Source: Planctomycetota bacterium (GTDB lineage: Bacteria; Planctomycetota; Phycisphaerae; Phycisphaerales; UBA5793). From it: 64,000 bases of DNA. The position numbers were made by a program, and so were the translations under genes. This document shows, piece by piece, positions 28,605 to 64,000 of the stretch; the stretch's first letter is position 1, and each line of letters starts with the position of its first letter. Under the pieces are notes generated by a model that searched no databases, had not been told where the DNA came from, and was given only the letters and a program-made list of their open reading frames with translations. Location of the stretch: contig CAUJHZ010000045.1 in assembly GCA_963205185.1 (NCBI GenBank), positions 1-64,000 on the forward strand. The letters are read 5' to 3'.

Positions 28605-29555
28605 TCACTCGTTGCCGATTTCACGAAGCCCCAGGCCGAGTTCGGAGAGCTTGTCGCGCACTTCGAGAAGGCTCGTCGTGCCGAAGTTCTTCACGCCCAG
28701 CAGTTCCGCCTCTGTCCGGGCGCAGAGGTCGCCGATCGACTGTACGTCGAGCAGTTGCAGCGCCTTTCGGGCGCGGACGGACAGCTCGAGATCGGAAACG
28801 GGCTTGTTGAGCAGGTGCTCCTGCGGCGTGCCGCGCAGCTGCTCGTACACCGCGTTGCGCAGCACGTTGTGCTGCTCATCGAGGCCCTGGCCGAGGCGCA
28901 GGCCCTTGGCGGCGAGCATGTCCTTGATCTCCTGCAGGCTCGTCTCGCCGAAGTTCTTGTAGCCGAGCAGTTCGGCTTCGGTGATGCGGAGCAGGTCGCC
29001 CAGCGAGCGGATGTTCATCTTCTTGAGGCAGTTGCGGGCCCGCACCGAGAGTTCGAAATCGGTCACCGGCGTATCGAGCAGCGCGTTGCGCTTGGTCATG
29101 TCGCGCTCGATGTCCTCATCCACTTCCATGTCGAAAGACGCCTCGACGTCTTTCATATAGCGCAGGGCCCGGGCGTGGTTGGGCTCGGTCTCGAGCACCT
29201 GGCGCAGGCACTTTTCGGCCCGCCGATAGCTGCCGCGATCTTCGTAGCAGATGGCCAGGTTCATGAGCGCGTTGATGTGGGCCGGCTGAAGTTCGACGCA
29301 GCGCTCGTACGTCGCCATCGCCTCGTCTTCTTCGCCGACGAGATCGAGTGCGAAGGCGAGTTTGAACATCGCCTCGCCGTTCTCGGGATCAAACTGGACG
29401 GCCCGTCGGTACTGCTCGATCGCGCCGTAGCGGTCGCCCGCCTTTTCGGCGTTGCTGCCGGCCACGAAATGCTCGCGGCTGGCCTGCGGGTCGCGGTTGA
29501 CCGCCTGCCCTGACGAGCCGATCAGAATATCCATCACATCTTGCGGCATACGCAT
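28605..29555 (-). CDS. TPR protein with two RNA polymerase alpha C-terminal domains
   Basis: A 316-residue protein. Residues about 20-135 are TPR repeats (AIEQYRRAVQFDPENGEAM, ATYERCVELQPAHINALMN, AEKCLRQVLETEPNH). Two copies of the RpoA C-terminal domain follow (about 148-215 and 235-310), with VRARNCL and NFGETSLQEIKD in copy 1, VRARKAL and NFGTTSL in copy 2. Copy 1 keeps equivalents of E. coli alpha R265, N268, C269, G296, S299 and E302; copy 2 has lost N268 and C269. The alpha subunit N-terminal domain is absent, so it is not RpoA. It may contact DNA or transcription factors. GGAG precedes two nearby ATGs (29555, 29549). Confidence 0.88.
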   Translation of the reverse strand: MRMPQDVMDILIGSSGQAVNRDPQASREHFVAGSNAEKAGDRYGAIEQYRRAVQFDPENGEAMFKLAFALDLVGEEDEAMATYERCVELQPAHINALMNLAICYEDRGSYRRAEKCLRQVLETEPNHARALRYMKDVEASFDMEVDEDIERDMTKRNALLDTPVTDFELSVRARNCLKKMNIRSLGDLLRITEAELLGYKNFGETSLQEIKDMLAAKGLRLGQGLDEQHNVLRNAVYEQLRGTPQEHLLNKPVSDLELSVRARKALQLLDVQSIGDLCARTEAELLGVKNFGTTSLLEVRDKLSELGLGLREIGNE

Positions 29556-29707
29556 GGTCTCCGGTTGGGGCTGTTGGACGCCTCGCCCAAGCCGCACGGC
29601 TGCGGCGTGGCGCCGGCGCTCACGACACCAATGATAGCGCTGCAGCCGCATCCGGAGAACACCCGAATTCGTCCGCAGGCCGAACCGCCCTGCGAAGCGG
29701 CGCGGGC

Positions 29708-30212: not shown

Positions 30213-31751
30213 CTACTCCACCAACGCCACATTGGATGGTGCGCAGTCGAACAGGTCGATTGCCTGGACATACACACTGCCGCATGCGGGTGGCGGGACA
30301 GATGCATTGAATGAAGCAGATCCATCGCCAGCCACTTGCAGCACGGCTGCCAACCGTGTTGATGCGTCGAGGCCGAGCACAGTACCGGCACATGGGTTTC
30401 CTTGAGGAATCCGAAGGTGGCCTGTTCCCGAGGAATACAGCAATGCGGCACGCGCGTTCTCGGTTGCTCCGACCAGTTTGATGTGTATTCGGCCCGGGCA
30501 TGGTCCATGAACACTGAGCAACGGGCCACCATGAACATCGAAAAGGTATACGGCGCCCGCATATGCCCCCAGATCGTCGTCGGACGGCAGACTCGCACAC
30601 AGAGTCGCGTCACACATCGCCAGAGCACCCGGAAATTTGTCCGCAATGTAGCCATCGTGGGGGTAGACCTTCCCAAGCTGCTCTGCCGTTCGTACGTCGA
30701 ATAAGTAGGCTGAACCGGAATTGGAGCCGTTTGCATCGTCGTGCGGCACACCGATCACGGAAACGGTTTCGTTGAGAGTCACAGTGGAACCGAGCCTGTC
30801 GCCGGCTTCTCCATCGGAAGCGGTCAGTTTCGCGAGTTCCATGCCCGAGTTTACGTCAAACAGATAGGCCGCGCCCGCATCCTGGCCCTTCTCATCATCT
30901 CCCCATGCACCGATGACTGCAAGTCCCTTTCCAGATGGACCTCCAATCGCGCCCGCTCTGCCAAAGTGATTTTCGGGCGCCGCATCATGCGGGAGCAATC
31001 TGAACAACTGCTGGCCGGTGCGGGCGTCGAAGAGATATGCTCGACCGGATCGTCCCGTGTTGTTCGCACTTGGAGCTGTGATCAACACCACATTGTCAGC
31101 GCTGATCTGTACAATGAACCCGAACGTGTCAGATGTTACTCCATCGCCAGCCAGCAATTTCAGCAGTTGTCGTGGCTGCCTTGGATCAGACACGTCAAAG
31201 ATATACGCCACCCCCGCGCCGGCACCGAGAGTACCGTCACCCGGCGCACCGACAATCGCGATGTTCCCATGAATGGCGACCGAAGTTCCGAAATACTTGT
31301 CCAATGTCGGGTCGCTCGCATTGAGGATCGCCAGCAGCGCCCCGGTGCTGACTCGAAACAGGTATGCCGAACCTGAATTGCTCGCTTGACGATCGGCGTA
31401 CGGTGCTCCCACGAGAGCGAGCGTGCCGTCCGTTGCAACCGCTTCACCGAATCGCTCTCCATCGTTGACGGTGGTGAGTTTGAAGAGTTGTTCGCCTGTC
31501 GCGGCATTGAAGAGATACGCTGCCTGCTGCCTCGGGTCGACAGGAAAAGTCGATCCAACGATGAGCGTCGTTTCACTGAGCCCCACCGAAATGCCGAAGG
31601 CTCCGTATGTTCCACCGTCGGCCGCGTATAATTTGTGAGTTTGCAGCCCATGACACTGAGCGTTCGCCGTTGAGATCAGCATCCACTCAGTGCTGAAGAG
31701 CGTCAGGAATGCCACGATAACACGAACGACTTGGCGGCAAACTTGAGACAT
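30213..31751 (-). CDS. Secreted FG-GAP-like propeller protein with shared C-terminal domain
   Basis: A 512-residue protein with a Sec signal (ending STANAQ). The body has about seven propeller repeats of the kind GxSVAIxGNIAIVGAPxD followed by SGSAYLFD, as in FG-GAP/integrin-alpha-like proteins. Residues from about 412 to the end form the shared C-terminal domain (CPGR, CAGTVLGLD, ACGSVYVQAIDLFDC, SNVA), with paired cysteines. The ATG at 31751 has GGAGGG 7 bases upstream; a GTG lies 5 codons before. AT content is higher and the style less biased than in its neighbours. Confidence 0.8.
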   Translation of the reverse strand: MSQVCRQVVRVIVAFLTLFSTEWMLISTANAQCHGLQTHKLYAADGGTYGAFGISVGLSETTLIVGSTFPVDPRQQAAYLFNAATGEQLFKLTTVNDGERFGEAVATDGTLALVGAPYADRQASNSGSAYLFRVSTGALLAILNASDPTLDKYFGTSVAIHGNIAIVGAPGDGTLGAGAGVAYIFDVSDPRQPRQLLKLLAGDGVTSDTFGFIVQISADNVVLITAPSANNTGRSGRAYLFDARTGQQLFRLLPHDAAPENHFGRAGAIGGPSGKGLAVIGAWGDDEKGQDAGAAYLFDVNSGMELAKLTASDGEAGDRLGSTVTLNETVSVIGVPHDDANGSNSGSAYLFDVRTAEQLGKVYPHDGYIADKFPGALAMCDATLCASLPSDDDLGAYAGAVYLFDVHGGPLLSVHGPCPGRIHIKLVGATENARAALLYSSGTGHLRIPQGNPCAGTVLGLDASTRLAAVLQVAGDGSASFNASVPPPACGSVYVQAIDLFDCAPSNVALVE

Positions 31752-31946
31752 TCTTGGACCCTCCACGGGCCACGACTATCGGTGCGTCTGCGAGCGCCAA
31801 CACCGCTGGCCCTGACCACTGACCACCGCACAGACTTCCCACCGCCGCGCGGCATCCACGTCGACTCAGAGCAACTTGATGATAGCGCACAGAGCAAGCT
31901 GCCGGCCGAGGCTCACCGACCCTCCGATTCGGATGCCGAATTCGCG

Positions 31947-34900
31947 TCACTGATTCGACTTCAGCTTCTTCCGATACGTCTCGGCCTGCTCGGGCCGGTT
32001 CAACGCTTCGTAGCAATCGACGAGCCTGGCGATGGCTTCCTGCGTTGGGGCCTTGTCAACGCCGATGGTGTTTTCCAGCCCGGTGCTGGCCAGCAGTAGT
32101 TCCGCCTCGGCGCGCTGTGTCTGACCCATGCTCAACAGGCACATGCCGTAGCGGCCGTGGATGAACCATCGCCTCCACAGGTCTTCGGGCAGGACCCGGT
32201 CCGCCGCGGCTACGACCTGCGCGTAGATCGGCTCCGCCTCTGCATAGCGCTGCCGGCTGCGGAAGAACGCAGCCAGGTTGTTGCCCGCGAAGATGGTCTC
32301 CGGATCATCTTCACCCAATGACGTCTTGGTCGCCGCAGCGACGTCAGAGTACATCGCCAGCGCCTCTTCGTCCTTGCCCGCGTCATCGAGTATGAACGCC
32401 AGTTCGCCCTTTACGCGCAGCGTGCGCGCATCGCCCGCGCCATACACGGCGATTCGATCCGCCAGCAGCCGCTTGAACTCCGCCTCCGCCTCCGCGGGCC
32501 GGCCGCTCTGGTTGAGCAGATCGGCGTAGGTGAAGCGCGCATCCTGCACGGCCGGGTAGTCGCCGCCGAGGTGGTTTTCCGCATCATCAAGCACGCGCTG
32601 CAGCAGCGCCTCGGCCTGCTCGAACTGGTGCAGATCGACCATCGCCCGGGCCAGGTTGGCCGAGAACATGACGGTGTCAGCCTGGTACGGCCCGAGCACC
32701 GCGCGCACGTTGTCCAACAACGGCCCCAGCAGCGCCGCCGCCTGCTCCGGCTCGCTCTGCGCGATGAGCCAGGCGCCGAGGTTGTTCGCGGCCGACAGGG
32801 TAATGATCGATTCCTCGCCCCACTGTGCCTTGGCCCGTTCGTAAGCCTCCCGCAATTCCGCCTCGGCTTGCGCCACCGCGCCGGACGCCGCGAGCGCCGC
32901 GGCGTAGTTGGCGGTGACAATGACGGTCTCCGATCCAAACCCGCCCTCGATCTCTCTGTGCGCGGCAATCGTCTCCTTGAAGAGGGCAAACGCCTCGTCG
33001 AAGCGCCGCTGCAACGTCCGCAGTTGCGCCAGCGCGTTAGCGAATTCGAGCGTGTACTGATCGGTCGCGCCGTACGCGCTTCGGTGGCGCTCGAAGGACT
33101 GCGTGAGCGGACCGTCTGCTCCGTCAAGATCGTGCTGATCGAGACGAATGAGCCCCAGTCCGTTCATGGCCTGCAGCGTCAGTCGCGCATCGGGGCCGTT
33201 GATCCGGCTGGATTCTTCATATGCGCGCGTCAACAGCTTCTCCGCGTCGTCGTGAAGCCCGGTGTAGCGATAGAGGCTGCCCAGCGCGAATTGCATCGTC
33301 GCCGCCACGTCGGCATCGCGGCCAAGTTCGGCATCGAGCGCCGCCACGGCGGGATCGAGCACCTGGACGATGCGCGCCTGGCGTCCGAGTTCGTTGATGC
33401 GGGCCCGTTTGAACATGTCCTGCAGGTAGGCGACGACGCGCTGGCTCTTGGCCGCCTCGCGTTGCGCCGTGCGCCGCAGCTCGCGCTCGCGGAGAAAACC
33501 GACACCCAGGATCGCCAGCAGCACGGCCAGGACCACCAGCGCCGCAACTGACAGCCGCACGAGCCTCTGACGCCGGGCCGCCTGCTCGAGGCGCTGCAGG
33601 TGCTGGGCGCGCTCGCGCCGCCGCGCAGGGAGCGTCTCGAGCCGCTCGGCGAGTTCGGCAGCGGTTCGGAAGCGCCGGTCCGGATCGCCCTCGACGCACT
33701 TGGCGATGTCCTCGCGCAGCAGCGGGTCGTCAACATCGCGCTCCCACCCCACCGCCAGGGGCCGATCGAGATCGCCGACCGCCATCTGATAGAGCAGCAC
33801 GCCCAGGGCGTAGATGTCGCCCTGCACGGTGAACGCCTTGCCCACGAGCATTTCGGGCGGGGCGTACAGCCGCGTGCCGGTGCGGCTCGATTCATTCTCC
33901 ATGAGCAGGCCGGTGAATCCCGAAACCGTAATCTGGCGCGCCTCGAGTTCGGTTCGGTCGGCGAGCATGCCGATGCCGAAGTCGGAAAGACGCGGCCGCG
34001 GCTGCCCGTCCTTGATCTGGTGAATCAGAATGTTCGACGGCTTGATGTCCTTGTGCAGTACGCCGACCGAGTGCGCCGCCGCCACGGCGCGGGCGGTTCG
34101 CGCCACGAGATCCAGCCGCGTCTCGACGGGCACTTTGTCGATGCCGCCCTGGGCTCTGGCCCAGTTGCCCAGATCGCCCGCTTCGGTGAACTCCACTTCG
34201 AGGAAGTAGGGCGCCTCGTCGAGCTGCACTTCATAGAGTCGCGCGATGTCATCCCGATCGCCGAGCACCTCGCGCAGCAGGCGAAACAACGTCAGTTCGC
34301 GCTTGAGCGAGCGCAGCCGATCCTGATCGAAGCAGAACTTGAACGCGCGGTGCACGCGGGTCTTCTCGTGGACGCCGAGCCAGACTTCGCCAAAGCCGCC
34401 CTCGCCGATGCGGCGCTCGAGCTTCCATCCGCCGCGCGTCGGCACCTCCAGGCCGCTGGCCGGACGCCAGCCGAGGGTTTCATCTTCGCCGGGCGCCAGC
34501 GCGCGGTGCGCTTTCTCCGAATCGCGCGGCGCGTGCAGGGGCGACTGCCCTTCAGCGCCGACTTCGAACACCTCCAGCGGCTCATCCGTGCCCTTGAACT
34601 TGTACGGCCCATGCGCCATCCAGCGGATGACCAGCGCCGGCCCGCTCTCGATGGGCGGATGCTGGCGCACGTACTGGCGGGCGCTGTCAAACAGCGCTCG
34701 CGTGAGCAGAATCTGCCCGCCTTCGGCCAGTCCCATGACGCGCGCTGTCAGGTCGATGGCCAGGCCGGACAGTTTCGCTCCGCCTTCGGGATCGGGATCG
34801 AGTTCGGAAACCTCCCCGAGGTGCAGTCCGACGCGGACCAGCAGCGGCGACCTGGGCCAGTCTTCCCGCCGCATGGCATCCTGAAAGAGCAGCGCGAAGT

Positions 34901-35126
34901 TGACCGCGCTGCTGACGGTGTTGAAGCGGGCAAGAAATCCATCGCCCGTGTCCTTGAGGATCTCCCCATCGCCGGCCTGCTCGAACACCCGCCTGAAGAT
35001 CGCATCGTGGCGGCCGATGATGCGGGCCGCCTCCGCGTCGCCCAGCCGGCTCTTGAGCTGCACCGATCCGACGATGTCGGAAAACAGCAGGACGACGAGG
35101 CGGGTTGGCGCGGGCGTCGCGGGCAT
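31947..35126 (-). CDS. Class III cyclase - Ser/Thr kinase - TM - TPR fusion protein
   Basis: A 1059-residue signalling protein. Residues 1-175 form a class III nucleotide cyclase (FSDIVGSV and DTGDGFLARF hold the metal Asps; the Lys before GDG is present). The transition-state Asn is replaced by Asp in AIDLTARV, while the Arg is kept. Residues about 235-500 form a Hanks kinase (IGEGGFGEVWLG, HKDIKPSNIL, DFGIG, GTRLYAPPEM). A transmembrane helix lies near 520-545 (LVRLSVAALVVLAVLLAILGVG). About ten TPRs fill 600-1050, probably outside the cytoplasm. Substrates and ligands are unknown. Confidence 0.92.
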   Translation of the reverse strand: MPATPAPTRLVVLLFSDIVGSVQLKSRLGDAEAARIIGRHDAIFRRVFEQAGDGEILKDTGDGFLARFNTVSSAVNFALLFQDAMRREDWPRSPLLVRVGLHLGEVSELDPDPEGGAKLSGLAIDLTARVMGLAEGGQILLTRALFDSARQYVRQHPPIESGPALVIRWMAHGPYKFKGTDEPLEVFEVGAEGQSPLHAPRDSEKAHRALAPGEDETLGWRPASGLEVPTRGGWKLERRIGEGGFGEVWLGVHEKTRVHRAFKFCFDQDRLRSLKRELTLFRLLREVLGDRDDIARLYEVQLDEAPYFLEVEFTEAGDLGNWARAQGGIDKVPVETRLDLVARTARAVAAAHSVGVLHKDIKPSNILIHQIKDGQPRPRLSDFGIGMLADRTELEARQITVSGFTGLLMENESSRTGTRLYAPPEMLVGKAFTVQGDIYALGVLLYQMAVGDLDRPLAVGWERDVDDPLLREDIAKCVEGDPDRRFRTAAELAERLETLPARRRERAQHLQRLEQAARRQRLVRLSVAALVVLAVLLAILGVGFLRERELRRTAQREAAKSQRVVAYLQDMFKRARINELGRQARIVQVLDPAVAALDAELGRDADVAATMQFALGSLYRYTGLHDDAEKLLTRAYEESSRINGPDARLTLQAMNGLGLIRLDQHDLDGADGPLTQSFERHRSAYGATDQYTLEFANALAQLRTLQRRFDEAFALFKETIAAHREIEGGFGSETVIVTANYAAALAASGAVAQAEAELREAYERAKAQWGEESIITLSAANNLGAWLIAQSEPEQAAALLGPLLDNVRAVLGPYQADTVMFSANLARAMVDLHQFEQAEALLQRVLDDAENHLGGDYPAVQDARFTYADLLNQSGRPAEAEAEFKRLLADRIAVYGAGDARTLRVKGELAFILDDAGKDEEALAMYSDVAAATKTSLGEDDPETIFAGNNLAAFFRSRQRYAEAEPIYAQVVAAADRVLPEDLWRRWFIHGRYGMCLLSMGQTQRAEAELLLASTGLENTIGVDKAPTQEAIARLVDCYEALNRPEQAETYRKKLKSNQ

Positions 35127-35358
35127 GGCAGCGGGCTCTCGGACCTTCCGGGACTGAAGCAGATGAGCGTACCGGCCCCGACTCGCGGCAGCAAGGCCGC
35201 GGAAAGGGCCGGATTCCCGCCCACAGAGTGGTTTAACGGGCCCTTATCCGGAATTCGCTTGCGTTTTCCGGCAAATGCAGTCATACTGATGTCGGTTTTT
35301 GCGAGGTCTGGGTGCAGGTTGACCCGATCCCGATCCTCTCCATCGAAGGGAGCGAGAC

Positions 35359-37260
35359 ATGCCACGAGCCCGTTTCTCTGCCACGCCGCTGCTGGCCGCG
35401 GCGTCGGCGGCCCTGCTTGCGCCAACCGCCTGGGGCCAGATCTCCATCGCGTCGCTCTCGGGCGCCGAGCACGTCGAGCCCCTCGCCATCGCGCAGGTCT
35501 TCAGCGACGGCTCGGTGGGACAGTGGCATCCGTACATCATCAACGACCTCAAGCACGACATCCAGGCGTCTGACCTCACCTTCGGCTCCGCCGAAACCAC
35601 CAAGCTCCGCGGCCCCGGGCCCGAGTTCGTGCCCACCGACGGCGTCGAGTGCGGCGGCTTCGACCCCGTCTGCACGCAGATCTGCGCCAAGACCCGACGC
35701 ATCCTCCAGTCGTGCGCGTTCACCTACGGCGGCATGCGCATCTCCGCCACCTCTTCGATCAACAGTCGCGGCGAGCGCGGCAATGTCGGCCAGGTCTTCC
35801 TTGCGTGGACGAACAAGCGCGGCGCCGGCGAACTCGACGACTTTGTCCCGCCGCGCGTCATCGGCGACACCGTCATCGAAGTGCTTCTCTACGATGCGCC
35901 GTTCTCGTCCAACTGCGAACCCTTCGAACCCAACCTCGTGGGCGGCGTGCTCGTCAACTTCGGCCCGCTCGATGGCAAGTGCGGCTCGGATACCTACTAC
36001 TACTCCACACTCAACCTGCGCGAGTTCGCCGATGTCTGCATGACCATTCCCGGACCCGCCGTGCAGTTCGGCTATGAAGTCGCCTTCTGGTACGACGATC
36101 AGCGCAGCGCCCGCGCCGCCAACAGCCAGGCCGTGCTCTGGGGCGCCAAGGATCGCCTCGAGCAGGGCTCGACCGATTCACTGGGGTACATCGATCTCGA
36201 CTACGACGGCATGTTCACGCCGCCGGGCGAGTGCATCTCACTCCAAAACGGCTGCCCGTCTTCGCTCGCGGCCGCCGTGGACTTCTGGGGCGGCTCTGAA
36301 CAGGGCATCATCAACCTCTGGGACAACGGCACGTTTGTCACGCAGTTCATCGCGGGCTGCAACGGCGGCGACATCAGCACGCTCGAAGCGCCCGGAGTGG
36401 TCCTCGGCTTCGACGCGTCGCGCAACGTCGCCCGCCAGGCCGACGACTTCACGGTGCCCGCTGGCCAGACGTGGCGACTCGACAACATGCAGTGGTACCT
36501 CTACCAACCCATGTCTCCACCCAATGAGCCGATCAACGCCGGCTTCGCGCGATTGTGGGATGGTCCGCCCGGCGCCGGCGGGCAGGTCATCGCCGGTGAT
36601 CTCACGACCAACCGCCTCGTCGGCTCCGAGTTCATGGACATCTATCGGGTCACGAGCAGCAACCCCTCGGATTGCAGCCGCGCTGTCAAGCGCATCACGC
36701 TGGACATGTCGTGGGCGCCGGATCTCACCGGCGGGACGTACTGGCTCGAATTGACCACGCAAGGCAGCCCCAACTTCACCGGCCCATTCGCGCCGCCCAC
36801 GGTGCCGCGCTCGCCCAACACCGACAACTCGCGCCGCTTCCTCGTTTCAAACCAGACGTGGGGTCCGAACATGGATTCCGGCCTGCCCGTTGATTTCCCC
36901 TTCGAACTCGAAGGCTCGATCATCTCCGGCAGCGGTTGCGATGTCACACAGTACACCCTCTCGGTCACGGGCACGTGCCCGGGGCAGGTCATCGTCGCGT
37001 GGGAGAATGCAGCGCCCGGCAGCCAGCAGGGACTGGTCTTCGGCCTGCACCGGGGCAACACGATCATCCCGCCCGGCTCGGCGTGCGAAGGCACGAGCCT
37101 TGGCATCAGCGGCAGCGTCCGCCTCGTGCGGGTCGTGTCCACCGGCGCCAACGGCAGCGGCACACTCACCGGCAACACAAGCACCGGCGCCTGCAGCGCC
37201 TACCTCCAACTCGTCGAGGCCAACTCCTGCCGCACGAGTAACGTCGCCCAGTTGCCGTAG
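35359..37260 (+). CDS. Large secreted protein with shared C-terminal domain
   Basis: A 633-residue protein with a Sec signal (ending TAWGQ) and AGGGAG 7 bases before the ATG. I do not recognise residues 25-525; they are rich in beta strands, Cys and aromatic residues, and include a segment (ARQADDFTVPAGQTWRLDNMQWYLYQ) resembling planctomycete extracellular proteins. The last ~95 residues are the shared domain (CPGQVIVAWENAAPG, CEGTSLGISG, CSAYLQLVEANSC, SNVAQLP), very close to the copy at 63.5 kb. The gene is divergent from the kinase fusion and convergent with the HAF protein. Confidence 0.8.
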   Translation: MPRARFSATPLLAAASAALLAPTAWGQISIASLSGAEHVEPLAIAQVFSDGSVGQWHPYIINDLKHDIQASDLTFGSAETTKLRGPGPEFVPTDGVECGGFDPVCTQICAKTRRILQSCAFTYGGMRISATSSINSRGERGNVGQVFLAWTNKRGAGELDDFVPPRVIGDTVIEVLLYDAPFSSNCEPFEPNLVGGVLVNFGPLDGKCGSDTYYYSTLNLREFADVCMTIPGPAVQFGYEVAFWYDDQRSARAANSQAVLWGAKDRLEQGSTDSLGYIDLDYDGMFTPPGECISLQNGCPSSLAAAVDFWGGSEQGIINLWDNGTFVTQFIAGCNGGDISTLEAPGVVLGFDASRNVARQADDFTVPAGQTWRLDNMQWYLYQPMSPPNEPINAGFARLWDGPPGAGGQVIAGDLTTNRLVGSEFMDIYRVTSSNPSDCSRAVKRITLDMSWAPDLTGGTYWLELTTQGSPNFTGPFAPPTVPRSPNTDNSRRFLVSNQTWGPNMDSGLPVDFPFELEGSIISGSGCDVTQYTLSVTGTCPGQVIVAWENAAPGSQQGLVFGLHRGNTIIPPGSACEGTSLGISGSVRLVRVVSTGANGSGTLTGNTSTGACSAYLQLVEANSCRTSNVAQLP

Positions 37261-37314
37261 GGAAGGCAGCGCAATTGCGAGTCTTACACGAGATTCCTGG
37301 TAACCGGCAGCGAA

Positions 37315-38673
37315 TCACTCAAACGTCCACGTCACGGTGTGACTGATCTCGCACTCGCAGGGCGCGATGGCCTGCATGCGGATGGTGCGGCCGCGGGCAA
37401 AGGGCGGGATGAACATTGTGAACGTCGCGACGCCGTTTTCGTCGGCGCGGACCATCGGCAGGGCGTGTGGATCGCGGATGAGCAGTGTGCCGCCGGGGCA
37501 TGACGGCCGAATCTTTTGTGCGCCTTCCTGCGTGCCCCAGACGAGAACGACCCGCTGATCGGGTTGAAGGCCCGTGATGGTTACGGTGTTTTGCCTGCCG
37601 GCGCGGCCCGGCACCGGATCGGACATCTCGAAGAGATAGGGCGTGACCAGATAGCCGCGGCCATCGCCATCGACATTGTCGCCGTAAGCGGCGATCTGCC
37701 CGGCGTCGTTGATGTCCTTTGCTTGAACCAGAACAGTGCCGGAATGACGCGGAATGAGGTCGTTGATATCGACGATCGCGAACTGCTGCGCCACCCGCTC
37801 CCACACGGTCGCATGTTGTCTTCCATTGCGGCATTGCGGATCCGGGTTCGATTCGCCGACGATCACTCCACGGTCATTGATCGCCCACACTCGAGAGGAG
37901 CACACTCCGAGATCGGGCAGTACGGTTCGCTGATTGTCTTGCCAATGGAATACACCGATCCCTTGCTGATGCGCAACAATCTCATCCAAGTCATTGATCG
38001 CGACGGCTCCACCGGACTGATTCGGCGGATCGCCGCCGATGTCGATCATCTGGCCGTCGCGCCAAAGAGTGGGACGGGGCACATTGAACTGGTTGTACGC
38101 CGAGCCGACTGCGTGACCGAGGCTGTTGATGTCGCCGATGGCGCTGCGAGCTCCTCCCATCTGAATTACGGTCTGCCCGTCCCACATTGTCGCATAGTCT
38201 TGGCTGCCTCCGCAGTAGCCGCCGGATGCTGTTCGCGGCCAAGGTTGGTCATCAACCGAGTGCACCGCGCCGGTCGAGGTACCACCTAACATCCCCAGAG
38301 GGTGACCTCCAGCAATCGTCCACGCGAACGGGTGATAGAAGAGCGGGGTAGCGACCGGACTGGCGGAGCCCACGACTACTCCGGCGTTGCTGATGTCGGT
38401 CAGCGACGGCGTCTGATAGCCGGGAGGCGCGAGTAGGATCACTGTCCAGCCGTTCACCCACACGATCGCGGAGTTGGGGAATACAGCCGAGCCCCCCGCC
38501 ATTCTCGCAAGGTCATCGATCGCAACCACTTCGGACGTTAGGTCCCCTTCAAGCGGCCGGATTTCGATGAGGTCGTAACCGGTCACGCCGGTCGGCTGCG
38601 CGATCGCGACGCCGGCGAGCGCGGCGAAGGACCCGCACACGATCAGCCGTCGAATCGAGTTTCGGACTGACAT
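37315..38673 (-). CDS. Secreted HAF-repeat protein with shared C-terminal domain
   Basis: A 452-residue protein with a Sec signal (ending AGVAIAQ). The middle has HAF-type repeats of the form DISNAGVVVGSA, DINSLGHAVGSA, AINDLDEIVAH, AINDRGVIVGES and DINDAGQIAAYG, each beside an x-W-x-x-G strand, forming a propeller. The C-terminal ~100 residues (VPGRAGRQNTVTITGLQP, RGRTIRMQAIAPCECE) are a version of the shared domain. GGGGAGG lies 6 bases before the ATG. HAF proteins are extracellular; the role is unknown. Confidence 0.82.
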   Translation of the reverse strand: MSVRNSIRRLIVCGSFAALAGVAIAQPTGVTGYDLIEIRPLEGDLTSEVVAIDDLARMAGGSAVFPNSAIVWVNGWTVILLAPPGYQTPSLTDISNAGVVVGSASPVATPLFYHPFAWTIAGGHPLGMLGGTSTGAVHSVDDQPWPRTASGGYCGGSQDYATMWDGQTVIQMGGARSAIGDINSLGHAVGSAYNQFNVPRPTLWRDGQMIDIGGDPPNQSGGAVAINDLDEIVAHQQGIGVFHWQDNQRTVLPDLGVCSSRVWAINDRGVIVGESNPDPQCRNGRQHATVWERVAQQFAIVDINDLIPRHSGTVLVQAKDINDAGQIAAYGDNVDGDGRGYLVTPYLFEMSDPVPGRAGRQNTVTITGLQPDQRVVLVWGTQEGAQKIRPSCPGGTLLIRDPHALPMVRADENGVATFTMFIPPFARGRTIRMQAIAPCECEISHTVTWTFE

Positions 38674-39249
38674 GCCCCGCCTCCCCTTGCGATGCGTTCA
38701 CGACAAGTCTACATCAGAATCAACGCGTTGAGTCGGTTTGCAGGCGGGAATCGGGCCCCGTTTTTGCACGCACTCGCCCGGCGTGGCGCGCCCGGTGCTC
38801 AATCTCGGCTTCCCGCTCGAAACGGCTTGCACGCCGAAGGTGTGATCGTCAGTAGCCGGCGGTGAAGCGAGTCTTCGAGCGCCACCCCCGGAAAGCGGTG
38901 CGCATTCCTCTGAACTCTGAAGGAGTTCTCGTGGCGTGTGGTGCGCATCGGGCGCGTAATGCGCGGCCGCAGGATACGAGCACCCCTTCGGGGTGCGATG
39001 CATTGCCGGCGACGCAACCGGGGGTCGCGCCCGCTTGCGCTCCCTGGACCCCCGGCTACTGGCGATGAGGCCTTCGGCCTCGACGCAGGAGGTCGCGCAC
39101 GTTTTGTTAAGAACAAGCGCGCCTGCACGCTCGGCACACAGCATCCGAAGCGGAGTGGCGCGCGGAACCTGCGCACGACGATGGGCAGAGGATGCAGGTC
39201 GCGCATGAGGAGCGTGCCGGCGGTGCGAAGTGCCGCTGCGACAAGTCCG
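38674..39249. other. Intergenic region without a supported gene
   Basis: About 575 bases between the start of the HAF gene and the terminator at 39250. Long open frames occur on both strands but have Arg/Ala/Pro-rich composition and no signal or motif. The region holds a block of hairpins (separate entry). The right part resembles diverged repeat sequence. The HAF gene promoter should lie at the left edge. Confidence 0.6.
38980..39081. repeat. Block of three hairpins, planctomycete-type intergenic repeat
   Basis: Three GC-rich hairpins follow each other: GCACCCC-TTC-GGGGTGC (38980-38996), CCGGGGGTC to GACCCCCGG (39018-39055, with an inner GCGC pairing), and GAGGCC-TTC-GGCCTC (39067-39081). 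From memory, very similar paired elements are scattered between genes of many planctomycetes and give rise to spurious annotated proteins. Copy number in this genome cannot be seen here, and no second copy occurs in this window. Confidence 0.55.
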
Positions 39250-39288
39250 AAAAATGCAAGGAGCGAGGCGGCTGCCTCGCTCCCTTGC
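39250..39288 (-). terminator. Rho-independent terminator of the dehydrogenase-protease operon
   Basis: On the minus strand GCAAGGGAGCGAGGC pairs with GCCTCGCTCCTTGC (one bulged base, loop AGCC) and is followed by ATTTTTC. It lies 69 bases after the protease stop, in the correct orientation. Confidence 0.88.
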
Positions 39289-39357
39289 GTTTCTATCGCA
39301 TTCTCGCGCGGCCGGGTGGTGATGCTGATGCAATACTCCGCTGCGCGATGCAGGTCC

Positions 39358-40812
39358 TCAGTTCACCAGCCTCGTCGAGATCGTTGACACGCGGCCGGCT
39401 TCGATGGCCTGGAGGGTCAGAGTCGCGCCGCGCGCCATCTGCGGGATGAGTCGCGTCATGCTGACATTGCCGTTGCCATCGGCGACGGCTGAGCCGCCGA
39501 GTTTGGGATTGAGAATGCCCAGCGTCACGCCCATGTTGGGCAGCAACGTCTCTCCCGTGCCCTGCAGGCTGTAGAGGAAGTAGACCGTCTGCCCCGCTGA
39601 GGCTTGCGCCGCCTGGAACGTGGCCTGCTGCCCGGCGAACAGCGACGGAACCGTCAGCGTGAATGGAGCGCACACGCCGCGCGGGTTGGCCAGCGCGGTC
39701 TGCCAGCCGGTGTGGTTGATGCCGGTGCCCTGGTTGGAACTGTTCGAGCTGCTGTCGCAGCCGGCGTGGGTGTGTACGCCGATGGCCAGGCCGGTGGACT
39801 CATCGAGCACGCACGAGCCGGAGTTGCCGCCGCTCGTGTCCACGCGGTAGCGGATCGTCGTCCCGCTGAACTGCCAGAACGGACCGGTGTGGATCTTCTG
39901 CACCTGGTTCCACTCGCGCGGCACGCCGTTGCCTGTCGTGCCGTATCCGGTGATGTTGATCGTCTGTCCGTTGACCTGCGGCGGCGTGGACGCGAGGACG
40001 TGGAACTCGCCCTGCGCCTGGTAGGCCGAAAGGCCCGTCTCGGTATTGCGGAACACGCCGAAGTAGCCCCAGTCCTGGCCGATGCTGCCGCTCTGGCTCT
40101 GCTTGGAGGCAATGTCAACGGAGTACTGGTCTTCGGGCCCCGGGTTGCGCGGCGTGCCGTTTCCGTCCGAGAGCGGTACGTTGAACTGGATGACCTGCAG
40201 GCTGCTGGATGAGCAGTGCCCCGCTGTGATGAACTGGTGATTGGAATCGTTGATGAGCCACGCCGAGCAGCCGATGGGCATGGCCCGGCCGGAGCGGGCG
40301 TCGGCAGACGGAACACGATCATCGGTCGTGCCGCAGATTGTCGCGGGACCTACGGTCTCATCGACGATGCCCACGTCGATGTGGTCGAGCACGACGCGGT
40401 TGTTCCTGCTGCCGGGCCGGGCGATCAACTCGACCGAGAGCGTTTCGCCGTTGAAGTAGGCGGTGCTGTTGTACCACTCTTTGATGGTCCACGCATTGAG
40501 GTTCTGCGTGCCGCCGTCCTCGAGCGACATGATACGGATGATGGAACTCTCGGCGGTGGCGTAGTCGGGATCGAGATCGACAGACTCGAAGTACAACCGC
40601 AGCCAGCCGGCGCCGCGGGCCTCGATGATCTCCGACCAGACGACGCGCGGCTCGTTGCCGCTATTGCTGAGCAGGCCTGAATCGGAGTTGAGGTCCACGG
40701 GCTTGCTCGGGACCGGCTGGGCCTGGCCCAGGGCCGCAGCCGGCAGCGCCAGCATGGCGGAAAGGAAGAGACCACGGGTGAGACCAGTCCGGCCGAGATG
40801 ATGTCCGTTCAT
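39358..40812 (-). CDS. Secreted trypsin-like serine protease with shared C-terminal domain
   Basis: A 484-residue protein with a Sec signal (ending AALGQ). After a ~130-residue N-terminal beta region comes a trypsin-like domain with His in TAGHC (near 197), Asp in QDWGYF (near 248) and Ser in GGNSGSC (near 328), so the triad appears complete. The last ~95 residues are the shared C-terminal domain (FAGQQATF, YSLQGTGET, LTLQAIEAG). GGAG stands 5 bases before the ATG. It follows the sugar dehydrogenase gene by 23 bases and the operon ends at the terminator at 39250. Confidence 0.88.
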   Translation of the reverse strand: MNGHHLGRTGLTRGLFLSAMLALPAAALGQAQPVPSKPVDLNSDSGLLSNSGNEPRVVWSEIIEARGAGWLRLYFESVDLDPDYATAESSIIRIMSLEDGGTQNLNAWTIKEWYNSTAYFNGETLSVELIARPGSRNNRVVLDHIDVGIVDETVGPATICGTTDDRVPSADARSGRAMPIGCSAWLINDSNHQFITAGHCSSSSLQVIQFNVPLSDGNGTPRNPGPEDQYSVDIASKQSQSGSIGQDWGYFGVFRNTETGLSAYQAQGEFHVLASTPPQVNGQTINITGYGTTGNGVPREWNQVQKIHTGPFWQFSGTTIRYRVDTSGGNSGSCVLDESTGLAIGVHTHAGCDSSSNSSNQGTGINHTGWQTALANPRGVCAPFTLTVPSLFAGQQATFQAAQASAGQTVYFLYSLQGTGETLLPNMGVTLGILNPKLGGSAVADGNGNVSMTRLIPQMARGATLTLQAIEAGRVSTISTRLVN

Positions 40813-40835
40813 GTTCGCTCCACGTTGAGGAAAAG

Positions 40836-42311
40836 TTACTGGATGACAGTCGAGATCACGTTGGTCGTTTCGCCCTGCTCGCCGGCCTGCAGCCAGACCC
40901 GCTGGCCGGAAGTGCCGCTGGGCACGCTGCGGCTGAGAATCGCCACACCCGAGCCGTTGGCCTGCACGCGTCCCGCCAGCACCGGGCTCTGAAGGGCGAC
41001 GGTGATGTTGAGCGGCGGGATGGGGGTCTGCCCGGTGCCGGCCAGGCTGTAGGCGAAGTAGACATTGCCGTTGGGTGTCGCGTTGGTGACGCGAAGCGTC
41101 GCGCGCTGGCCGGCCACGAGATCGGTCGCCTCGAGTTTCATCTTCGTCACGATCTTGTTGATCGTGCCGCCGAGGCTGACGATGTAGATTTCGCCGTTGG
41201 CGTCTTCGCCGAACGACGCGATGGAACTGATCGAGCCGCCGCCGAGCTCGGAGGTGCGGTCCGTGAAGTTGGTCACCTGCTGGCCGTCGTAGTTGAACGA
41301 GTAGATGTTGCGGCTGCAGTAGTCGGCGAAGAAGTAGGTGTTGTCGAGCAGCGGAATTGCTTGCCCGCGGTAGTTGTACCCGCCGGTGATCGAGCAGCGG
41401 CCGCCGCTGTGCAGGTACTCGTAGATGGGCAGCGTGAGGGTGGGCGCGTTGCACGTGCAGCCGCTCAGGCCGGTGCAGCGCGTGCCTTCCATGCAGCGCC
41501 AGCCGTAGTTGCGCCCGCCGTCGCCGGCAAGTTCAAAATCGACTTCTTCGTTGGAGCCCTGGCCGACGTCGCCGAGGTAGAGGTCTCCCGTGATGCGATC
41601 GAAACTGAACCGCCACGGATTGCGCACGCCGATGGTCCAGATCTCGTCGCGCACCGCGGGGTCGTTGATGAACGGGTTGTCGGCGGGAATGGTGTAGGGA
41701 AGTTGATCGACGTTGATGCGGAGAACTTTGCCCAGCAGTTCCTGGCCGTTCTGAGCGCGGTTGCCAGGATCATTGGCGCTGCCGCCATCGCCCATGCCGA
41801 TGTAGAGATAGCCATCCATCGGCGAGAACTGCAAACACCCGCCGTTGTGGTTCGAATACGGCTGGCTGACGGTCAAAACGATCTCTTCGGAATTGAAATC
41901 CGCCACATCGGGGTCGGCGGTCACTTCGTATCGGGCCACAACCGTGTTGCCCGAGGTGTTCGTGTAGTTGATGAAGAAGTAGCCGTTGCTGTCGTAATCA
42001 GGATGGAACGCCAGGCCGAGCAGCCCGCGCTCGCCGCCGGTGCTGATGCGGGTGCGCACGTCGAGAAACGGCGTGGTCAGCAGGTTGCCGTCCTTGATGA
42101 TGCGGATCTGGCCGGCGTTCTGCTGGAGCACGAAGAGGCGCTGGGTGTCGCCAGGAGGCGAGGTGACGTAAAGCGCGCCTGACAGGCCGCTGGCAACCTG
42201 TTCGACGGCGAGTGTCTGCGCCTGGGACGGGGAAGCGGTAAACGAAACGGCGACGACGCCGAAACACGCGACGGCGTACGCCACCGCGCGGTGAATTGGC
42301 TTGCGGTACAT
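40836..42311 (-). CDS. Secreted PQQ-dependent sugar dehydrogenase-like protein with shared C-terminal domain
   Basis: A 491-residue protein with a Sec signal (ending SPSQAQ). The body is a glucose/sorbosone dehydrogenase propeller: GGERGLLGLAFHPDY, NHNGGCLQFSPMDGYLYIGMGDGG, GKVLRINVD, GVRNPWRFSFDRITGDLYLGDVGQ and NYGWRCMEGT. By family it oxidises sugars with PQQ, though many homologs have no known substrate. The C-terminal ~95 residues are the shared domain (LVAGQRATLRV, YSLAGTGQTPIP, VWLQAGEQG). GGGAGAG precedes the ATG. It is the first gene of a two-gene operon with the trypsin-like protease. Confidence 0.88.
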   Translation of the reverse strand: MYRKPIHRAVAYAVACFGVVAVSFTASPSQAQTLAVEQVASGLSGALYVTSPPGDTQRLFVLQQNAGQIRIIKDGNLLTTPFLDVRTRISTGGERGLLGLAFHPDYDSNGYFFINYTNTSGNTVVARYEVTADPDVADFNSEEIVLTVSQPYSNHNGGCLQFSPMDGYLYIGMGDGGSANDPGNRAQNGQELLGKVLRINVDQLPYTIPADNPFINDPAVRDEIWTIGVRNPWRFSFDRITGDLYLGDVGQGSNEEVDFELAGDGGRNYGWRCMEGTRCTGLSGCTCNAPTLTLPIYEYLHSGGRCSITGGYNYRGQAIPLLDNTYFFADYCSRNIYSFNYDGQQVTNFTDRTSELGGGSISSIASFGEDANGEIYIVSLGGTINKIVTKMKLEATDLVAGQRATLRVTNATPNGNVYFAYSLAGTGQTPIPPLNITVALQSPVLAGRVQANGSGVAILSRSVPSGTSGQRVWLQAGEQGETTNVISTVIQ

Positions 42312-63495: not shown

Positions 63496-64000
63496 TTACG
63501 GGATCTGCGCGACGTTGCTCGTGTTGCAGGATCCCGCTTCGACCAGTTGCAGGAAGTGACCGCACGCCGCGGTACCCGCCCGTCCATTCACGGAACCCGA
63601 CCCGCTGCCGGTGCCAATGGTGTTGATGAGTTGCACGCTGCCCTGCACACCGAGCATGGTGCCCGCGCACGGTCCGCCGGGGATGATGGTGCTGCCCTGG
63701 TTCTGTCCGAAGACGATGCCCTGCTGCACGCTCGGCGTCGCGTTGTTCCAGGAGACCGTCAACGTGCCGGGGCACACTCCCGAGATGCGAAGCGTGTAGC
63801 GACCCGCGCCGCCGGTAACTGCGGCGAGGCCATCGTGCGCGCCGAGGCCCGAGAGGCGCAGCGTGCGCGCGTAGCCGTTGTTGGGATCGATGCTGTAGAG
63901 GTTGCCGCTCCAGTCGATGAGCCAGTACAGGCCGGTGTCGTCGTCGTAGGCCATTCCGCAGTTGTTGAAGAACGCGCCGTCGTTGAGCAGCGTGGTGTTC
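63496..64000 (-). CDS. Secreted protein with shared C-terminal domain, 5' end outside window
   Basis: The last 167 codons of a protein whose start lies beyond the right edge; the frame is open to base 64000. The visible part has a propeller-like blade (NNCGMAYDDDTGLYWLIDWSGNLYSIDP) and then the shared C-terminal domain (CPGTLTVSWNNATPS, QQGIVFGQNQGSTIIPGG, CAGTMLGVQGS, CGHFLQLVEAGSC, SNVAQIP). This domain is almost the twin of that in the protein at 35359. A strong terminator follows. Confidence 0.8.
   Translation of the reverse strand, partial: NTTLLNDGAFFNNCGMAYDDDTGLYWLIDWSGNLYSIDPNNGYARTLRLSGLGAHDGLAAVTGGAGRYTLRISGVCPGTLTVSWNNATPSVQQGIVFGQNQGSTIIPGGPCAGTMLGVQGSVQLINTIGTGSGSGSVNGRAGTAACGHFLQLVEAGSCNTSNVAQIP

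Follow-up and report, generated by a model that had tools for sequence, protein, structure and literature searches.

A predicted Ig-like C-terminal domain as a candidate surface handle on some 200 secreted proteins of a planctomycete

Some 200 secreted proteins of a Phycisphaerales planctomycete, mostly unrelated to one another in their bodies, end in the same domain of about 100 residues, and we propose, with a probability of roughly 0.6, that this tail serves its carriers as a common C-terminal handle, either for attachment at the surface or for sorting. The case is built on sequence, which gives a single family in many copies, a near-constant position, varied partners, exchange between versions and replacement on the same body type. 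The tail is predicted to fold as an Ig-like beta-sandwich and would be recognised by a partner common to its carriers.

The original prediction concerned a 64,000-nucleotide stretch of contig CAUJHZ010000045.1 (the window) and described six secreted proteins of different kinds that share a C-terminal domain in two versions, A with four conserved cysteines and B lacking most of them. All six frames were recovered where described, with Sec-type N-termini and a common C-terminal region of ~100 residues, and the bodies are indeed unrelated: four match FG-GAP_2, HAF repeat, Trypsin_2 and glucose/sorbosone dehydrogenase (GSDH), and the two at 35359 and 63496 have no Pfam match in the parts scanned. 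The gene at 63496 runs on past the window edge; with the contig read beyond that edge, it encodes a complete protein of 340 amino acids with a signal peptide. The carriers and their tails are as follows.

30213..31751, minus strand: secreted FG-GAP_2 propeller protein, 512 amino acids, version-A tail (Pfam FG-GAP_2, E 4e-72)
30216..30527, minus strand: version-A tail of the FG-GAP_2 protein, four conserved cysteines
35359..37260, plus strand: secreted protein of 633 amino acids, body without Pfam match, version-A tail
36949..37257, plus strand: version-A tail of the 633-residue protein (AlphaFold pLDDT 95.9)
37315..38673, minus strand: secreted HAF-repeat protein, 452 amino acids, version-B tail (HAF repeat, E 1e-9)
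37318..37638, minus strand: version-B tail of the HAF-repeat protein, three cysteines in this copy
39358..40812, minus strand: secreted Trypsin_2 protein, 484 amino acids, version-B tail (Trypsin_2, E 3e-6)
39361..39663, minus strand: version-B tail of the Trypsin_2 protein (AlphaFold pLDDT 97.1)
40836..42311, minus strand: secreted glucose/sorbosone dehydrogenase-like protein, 491 amino acids, version-B tail (GSDH, E 2e-41)
40839..41141, minus strand: version-B tail of the GSDH-like protein
63496..63999, minus strand: secreted protein, 3' part in the window, version-A tail
63499..63801, minus strand: version-A tail of the 63496 protein

Two other minus-strand genes of the window have unusual domain combinations: 31947-35126 encodes a nucleotide-cyclase domain, a Ser/Thr kinase domain and TPR repeats in one protein, and 28605-29651 encodes TPR repeats fused to two RNA polymerase alpha C-terminal domains, apparently not an rpoA gene.

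The six copies are real but form a small part of a much larger set. Models built from three A tails and from three B tails gave at least 144 and at least 134 matches, respectively, in the 4.55-Mb genome, with similarity far beyond chance (many version-A matches outside the window lie at E < 1e-30), and together identify at least 209 distinct tail places, 35 of them recovered by both models. Profiles built from the 105 A and the 88 B tails cross-match one another down to E 1e-23 and hhalign relates them with a probability of 98.7%, ruling out two unrelated tail families; judged by these alignments, A and B are one homologous family. A glycine (99%) and a glutamine (98%) are near-invariant over the 193 tails. 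The contrast in cysteine content between the versions holds genome-wide: version A never has fewer than four and has exactly four in 85 of 105 tails, whereas version B has none in 34 and two in 33 of its 88, although the tail at 37315, which had been called cysteine-poor, has three. These even numbers suggest disulfides, and version A, where the cysteines are conserved, probably has two.

No named family accounts for the tail. Neither the window proteins nor a sample of 25 A and 25 B tails showed a Pfam or NCBIfam match in the tail, there was no significant PDB match by sequence or by fold, and no known domain from these three sources could thus be put forward as its identity; the open-access literature searched describes it nowhere. 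Nor did Pfam scans of the 50 tails match any carbohydrate-binding module (CBM) family, a match that had been named as a sign against the proposed role. AlphaFold models, proposed earlier as a check, predict an all-beta, Ig-like sandwich for both versions (pLDDT as listed for the tails at 35359 and 39358), the two models being not fully independent because the version-B alignment consists mostly of A sequences. Foldseek returned no PDB match at E <= 0.001 for either version; the nearest structures are those of Ig-like proteins, mainly neocarzinostatin-type apoproteins in the case of B, with 1nco (TM 0.65/0.59) among the best and C-1027 giving a weak profile match (E 0.04) below significance. 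Those proteins share with the tail only the Ig-like fold, at sub-threshold similarity, and differ from it in being enediyne-binding secreted proteins rather than tails; we therefore treat them as fold neighbours and reject membership of the neocarzinostatin family.

The position of the tail is near-absolute within the Planctomycetota, as predicted. Of 193 tails with a visible stop codon, 174 end within seven residues of it, and in 17 the profile match stops 11-25 residues short, the remainder being the rest of the domain; the tail is the last domain in 191 of these 193 closed frames (counted on stretches fetched from the genome, with 14 of the 209 places left out). One exception, C76:250323, belongs to a double tail, of which it forms the first half, and the other, C25:130987, is the sole tail followed by other sequence, a cysteine-rich stretch. 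The double tail itself (C76:250323-250925, L109) consists of two version-B tails in tandem at the C-terminus of one protein. The tail is likewise C-terminal in 75 of 77 cases read in same-family MAGs and in 31 of 32 from 17 other genomes of the phylum, the one internal copy being in G016. Signal-peptide-like starts were called in 174 of 189 tail frames (~92%) compared with 10 of 34 long window frames that have no tail, by a simple heuristic rule (not SignalP) applied to both sets, the 34 control frames including some spurious ones and having a shorter start region scanned. Both parts of a check suggested with the original prediction, that tail matches should carry signal peptides and end at the C-terminus, are thereby largely borne out.

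What precedes the tail is highly diverse. The bodies of 164 tail-bearing proteins fall into 72 BLAST clusters, 47 of them singletons, and 138 bodies matched 52 Pfam families, including DUF3466, FG-GAP, subtilase, kelch, M14, GSDH, CHRD and beta-helix. In 19 of 172 signal-peptide-bearing frames there is no body at all, only signal peptide and domain, several of these genes forming tandem arrays. Arrays of such tiny secreted version-A proteins are seen at C57:46213-47751 (L125), C59:12820-14015 (L101), C7:718-2239 (L111) and C1:16968-17724 (L138), and also in L227 and L230. Where orthologues are clear, domain-only genes have pN/pS values of 0.19-0.39, with synonymous sites near saturation, and on this measure are under purifying selection.

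Two observations bear on whether the tail occupies a functional slot. A and B tails are mixed within several body clusters. In the clearest pair, the adjacent genes C18:126548 and C18:129382, the bodies share 67% identity over 730 amino acids, yet one tail is B and the other A (23% identical), the similarity breaking off at the domain boundary. That neighbouring paralogues so alike in their bodies have different versions indicates that the tail is exchangeable. The second observation comes from the HAF-repeat proteins, which end in the tail at 9 of 9 loci in the window's family. Among 15 HAF proteins from other families of the order that were readable to a clear end, none ends in the tail, nine have PEP-CTERM-like and six dockerin-like ends; Pfam confirms dockerin in five and PEP-CTERM in three, the others being assigned by visual inspection of the motif, the hydrophobic stretch and the basic end, and six open or unclear loci (L238, L242, L244, L248, L255 and L257) being left out. 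That a HAF body has PEP-CTERM or dockerin at the tail's place in other families is the most telling point in favour of the role first proposed; together with the A/B exchange, replacement on the same body type suggests a common function of the slot. PEP-CTERM matches number 5-22 per genome in the window's family, whereas most genomes of families f3 and f4 have between tens and nearly 150, as counted at a loose threshold (E up to 1) at which some control genomes also matched. HAF repeats are themselves strongly expanded in the window's family, with 73-109 matches in five of its six genomes (G000, G294 and G296-G298) and 19 in G295; order relatives have 0-14.

Version A gave at least 70-80 matches in each of the six genomes of the window's family and no match in the 55 genomes sampled from five other families of the order. 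Across the phylum, version A is found in at least 11 of 294 genomes, mainly in one distant family (f61), and version B in at least 37 of 294, in about 20 families, with at least 23-80 matches per genome in f61; these are lower bounds, as the scans may miss weak carriers. A search with a five-row alignment gave 136, 132 and 89 version-B matches in the MAGs UBA5793, PLA1 and PLA5. In what appears to be a different phylum, to which the MAG 'Deltapro3' belongs, 6 of 237 genomes give weak matches; of the related domains read there, the majority (L221, L226, L228, L229, L297, L298 and L303-L306) are internal and often follow the signal peptide immediately, with C-terminal exceptions at L299, L300 and L302. 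Internal copies had been named as a sign against the original prediction: they are rare in Planctomycetota but make up most of those read in Deltapro3's phylum. MAGs in this comparison may be misbinned or mislabelled. The public label 'Vicinamibacteraceae' of WYBR01 (PLA1) looks wrong, and CAMASI01, a MAG labelled 'Klebsiella pneumoniae', groups with Deltapro3's phylum.

Several known C-terminal tags invite comparison. PEP-CTERM (PF07589) is a 24-residue element comprising the PEP motif, a transmembrane helix and a basic end (PMC1569441); it resembles the tail in being C-terminal, in occurring many times per genome and in its place on relatives' HAF proteins, but the tail is a folded domain without those three elements, gives no Pfam match and ends in a strand such as SNVVQIP. 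Co-occurrence with a sorting protein, a check proposed at the outset, failed for exosortase (PF09721): each of the 41 order relatives searched has it, whether or not tails are present, so it does not explain the tail, and this distribution, together with the absence of a transmembrane helix and basic end, rules it out as the processing enzyme. Dockerins, for which a docking role on surface scaffolds (the 'planctosome') has been proposed in planctomycetes (PMC6461901), are also C-terminal modules found at the same place on relatives' HAF proteins, but type I dockerins (PF00404) consist of calcium-binding EF-hand-like repeats, whereas the tail, with no Pfam match, is modelled as all-beta without such F-hand motifs. 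MYXO-CTERM, associated with myxosortase, likewise tags the C-termini of dozens of secreted proteins within a single lineage (PMC11980579); it is a short cysteine motif followed by a transmembrane helix and an arginine cluster, unlike the folded tail, in whose sequences and models it is absent and which has no NCBIfam match.

The closest parallel is the C-terminal domain (CTD) of type IX secretion (T9SS) cargo, a C-terminal Ig-like beta-sandwich (PMC4804311) whose types A and B are found on many unrelated Sec-exported proteins (PMC4804311, PMC7712824). Like the CTD (TIGR04183; type B, TIGR04131), the tail is roughly 80-100 amino acids long, exists in two versions and, from tail positions and AlphaFold models, would place an Ig-like sandwich at the extreme C-terminus of many unrelated Sec-exported carriers. 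The domain-only proteins, which a pure cargo tag would not need, recall Fjoh_0547, a very small T9SS CTD protein of 112 residues (PMC7712824). An export signal of a T9SS-like system, read by an outer-membrane translocon and perhaps cleaved, would fit these likenesses and the substitution for PEP-CTERM on HAF proteins; we consider it unlikely, given the absence of any TIGR04183 or TIGR04131 match in NCBIfam scans of the window proteins and 25 A and 25 B tails, and given the internal homologues in another phylum. The four conserved cysteines of version A are a further difference. T9SS CTDs are required for passage across the outer membrane and are usually removed by cleavage. SprA (TIGR04189) had no match in 13 genomes, the control genomes being silent as well. 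The suggestion of a planctomycete analogue of Por tails is therefore fair as a resemblance, not as a demonstrated function.

Non-covalent attachment by the tail is the form of handle that we prefer to an export signal, at somewhat less than even odds, in view of the secreted proteins that consist of the domain alone and of the internal homologues elsewhere; the latter make it less likely that the domain is a sorting signal everywhere and favour an extracellular Ig-like module that has become fixed at the C-terminus in Planctomycetota. Cargo would be exported by Sec, as its signal peptides suggest, and fold outside the cytoplasm, with the tail as a self-folding Ig-like beta-sandwich at its end. 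This end domain would be read by one surface component common to the cargo, which might be a scaffold, a partner in the outer membrane, a polysaccharide or a gate for export, and some 200 unrelated enzymes and propellers would thereby be displayed on the cell or in the matrix. Among the candidates looked for (exosortase and SprA), no receptor, scaffold or exporter was found. The role first proposed, a sorting, anchoring or secretion signal, is partly supported: C-terminal position, signal peptides, diverse partners, the absence of a CBM match and the HAF slot shared with PEP-CTERM and dockerin speak for it, and the mostly internal domains of Deltapro3's phylum speak against it as a universal role.

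CBMs and adhesins often contain Ig-like sandwiches, and the tail might instead be a module binding carbohydrate or another polymer that is C-terminal by chance. A beta-glucan-binding domain among the weak Foldseek neighbours (rank 46, TM 0.50) and the internal copies in the other phylum would suit such a module, but we think it quite improbable: no CBM family was matched, the domain in Planctomycetota is almost never internal, N-terminal or repeated, unlike typical CBMs, and its partners are for the most part not glycan-active enzymes but propellers, HAF proteins and proteases. Less credible still is a generic folding or protease-protection cap that has no common partner and has spread by duplication. 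The genes do cluster and duplicate, with a stretch of 8.5 kb on C56 holding several tails and with domain-only genes in tandem, and a predicted stable all-beta domain could serve as a cap; against this stand the clean A/B exchange on bodies 67% identical, the replacement of PEP-CTERM and dockerin on the same body type and the purifying selection on domain-only genes. A bolder extension of the attachment or sorting handle, which we regard as rather doubtful, is an undescribed sorting and display system of Planctomycetota, in which an outer-membrane machine, with an origin separate from that of T9SS, would route ~200 proteins to the surface by their Ig-like tails, having mostly replaced PEP-CTERM and dockerin in the window's family.

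Little is known of how planctomycetes place proteins at their surface beyond PEP-CTERM and hypothetical cohesin/dockerin complexes. Here, a single unnamed domain is common to some 200 secreted proteins in each genome of a Phycisphaerales family that is itself little known. With version A present throughout the sampled genomes of that family and in none of the sampled sister families, the search for its partner is well-posed, and a family model of the tail would annotate hundreds of proteins per genome.
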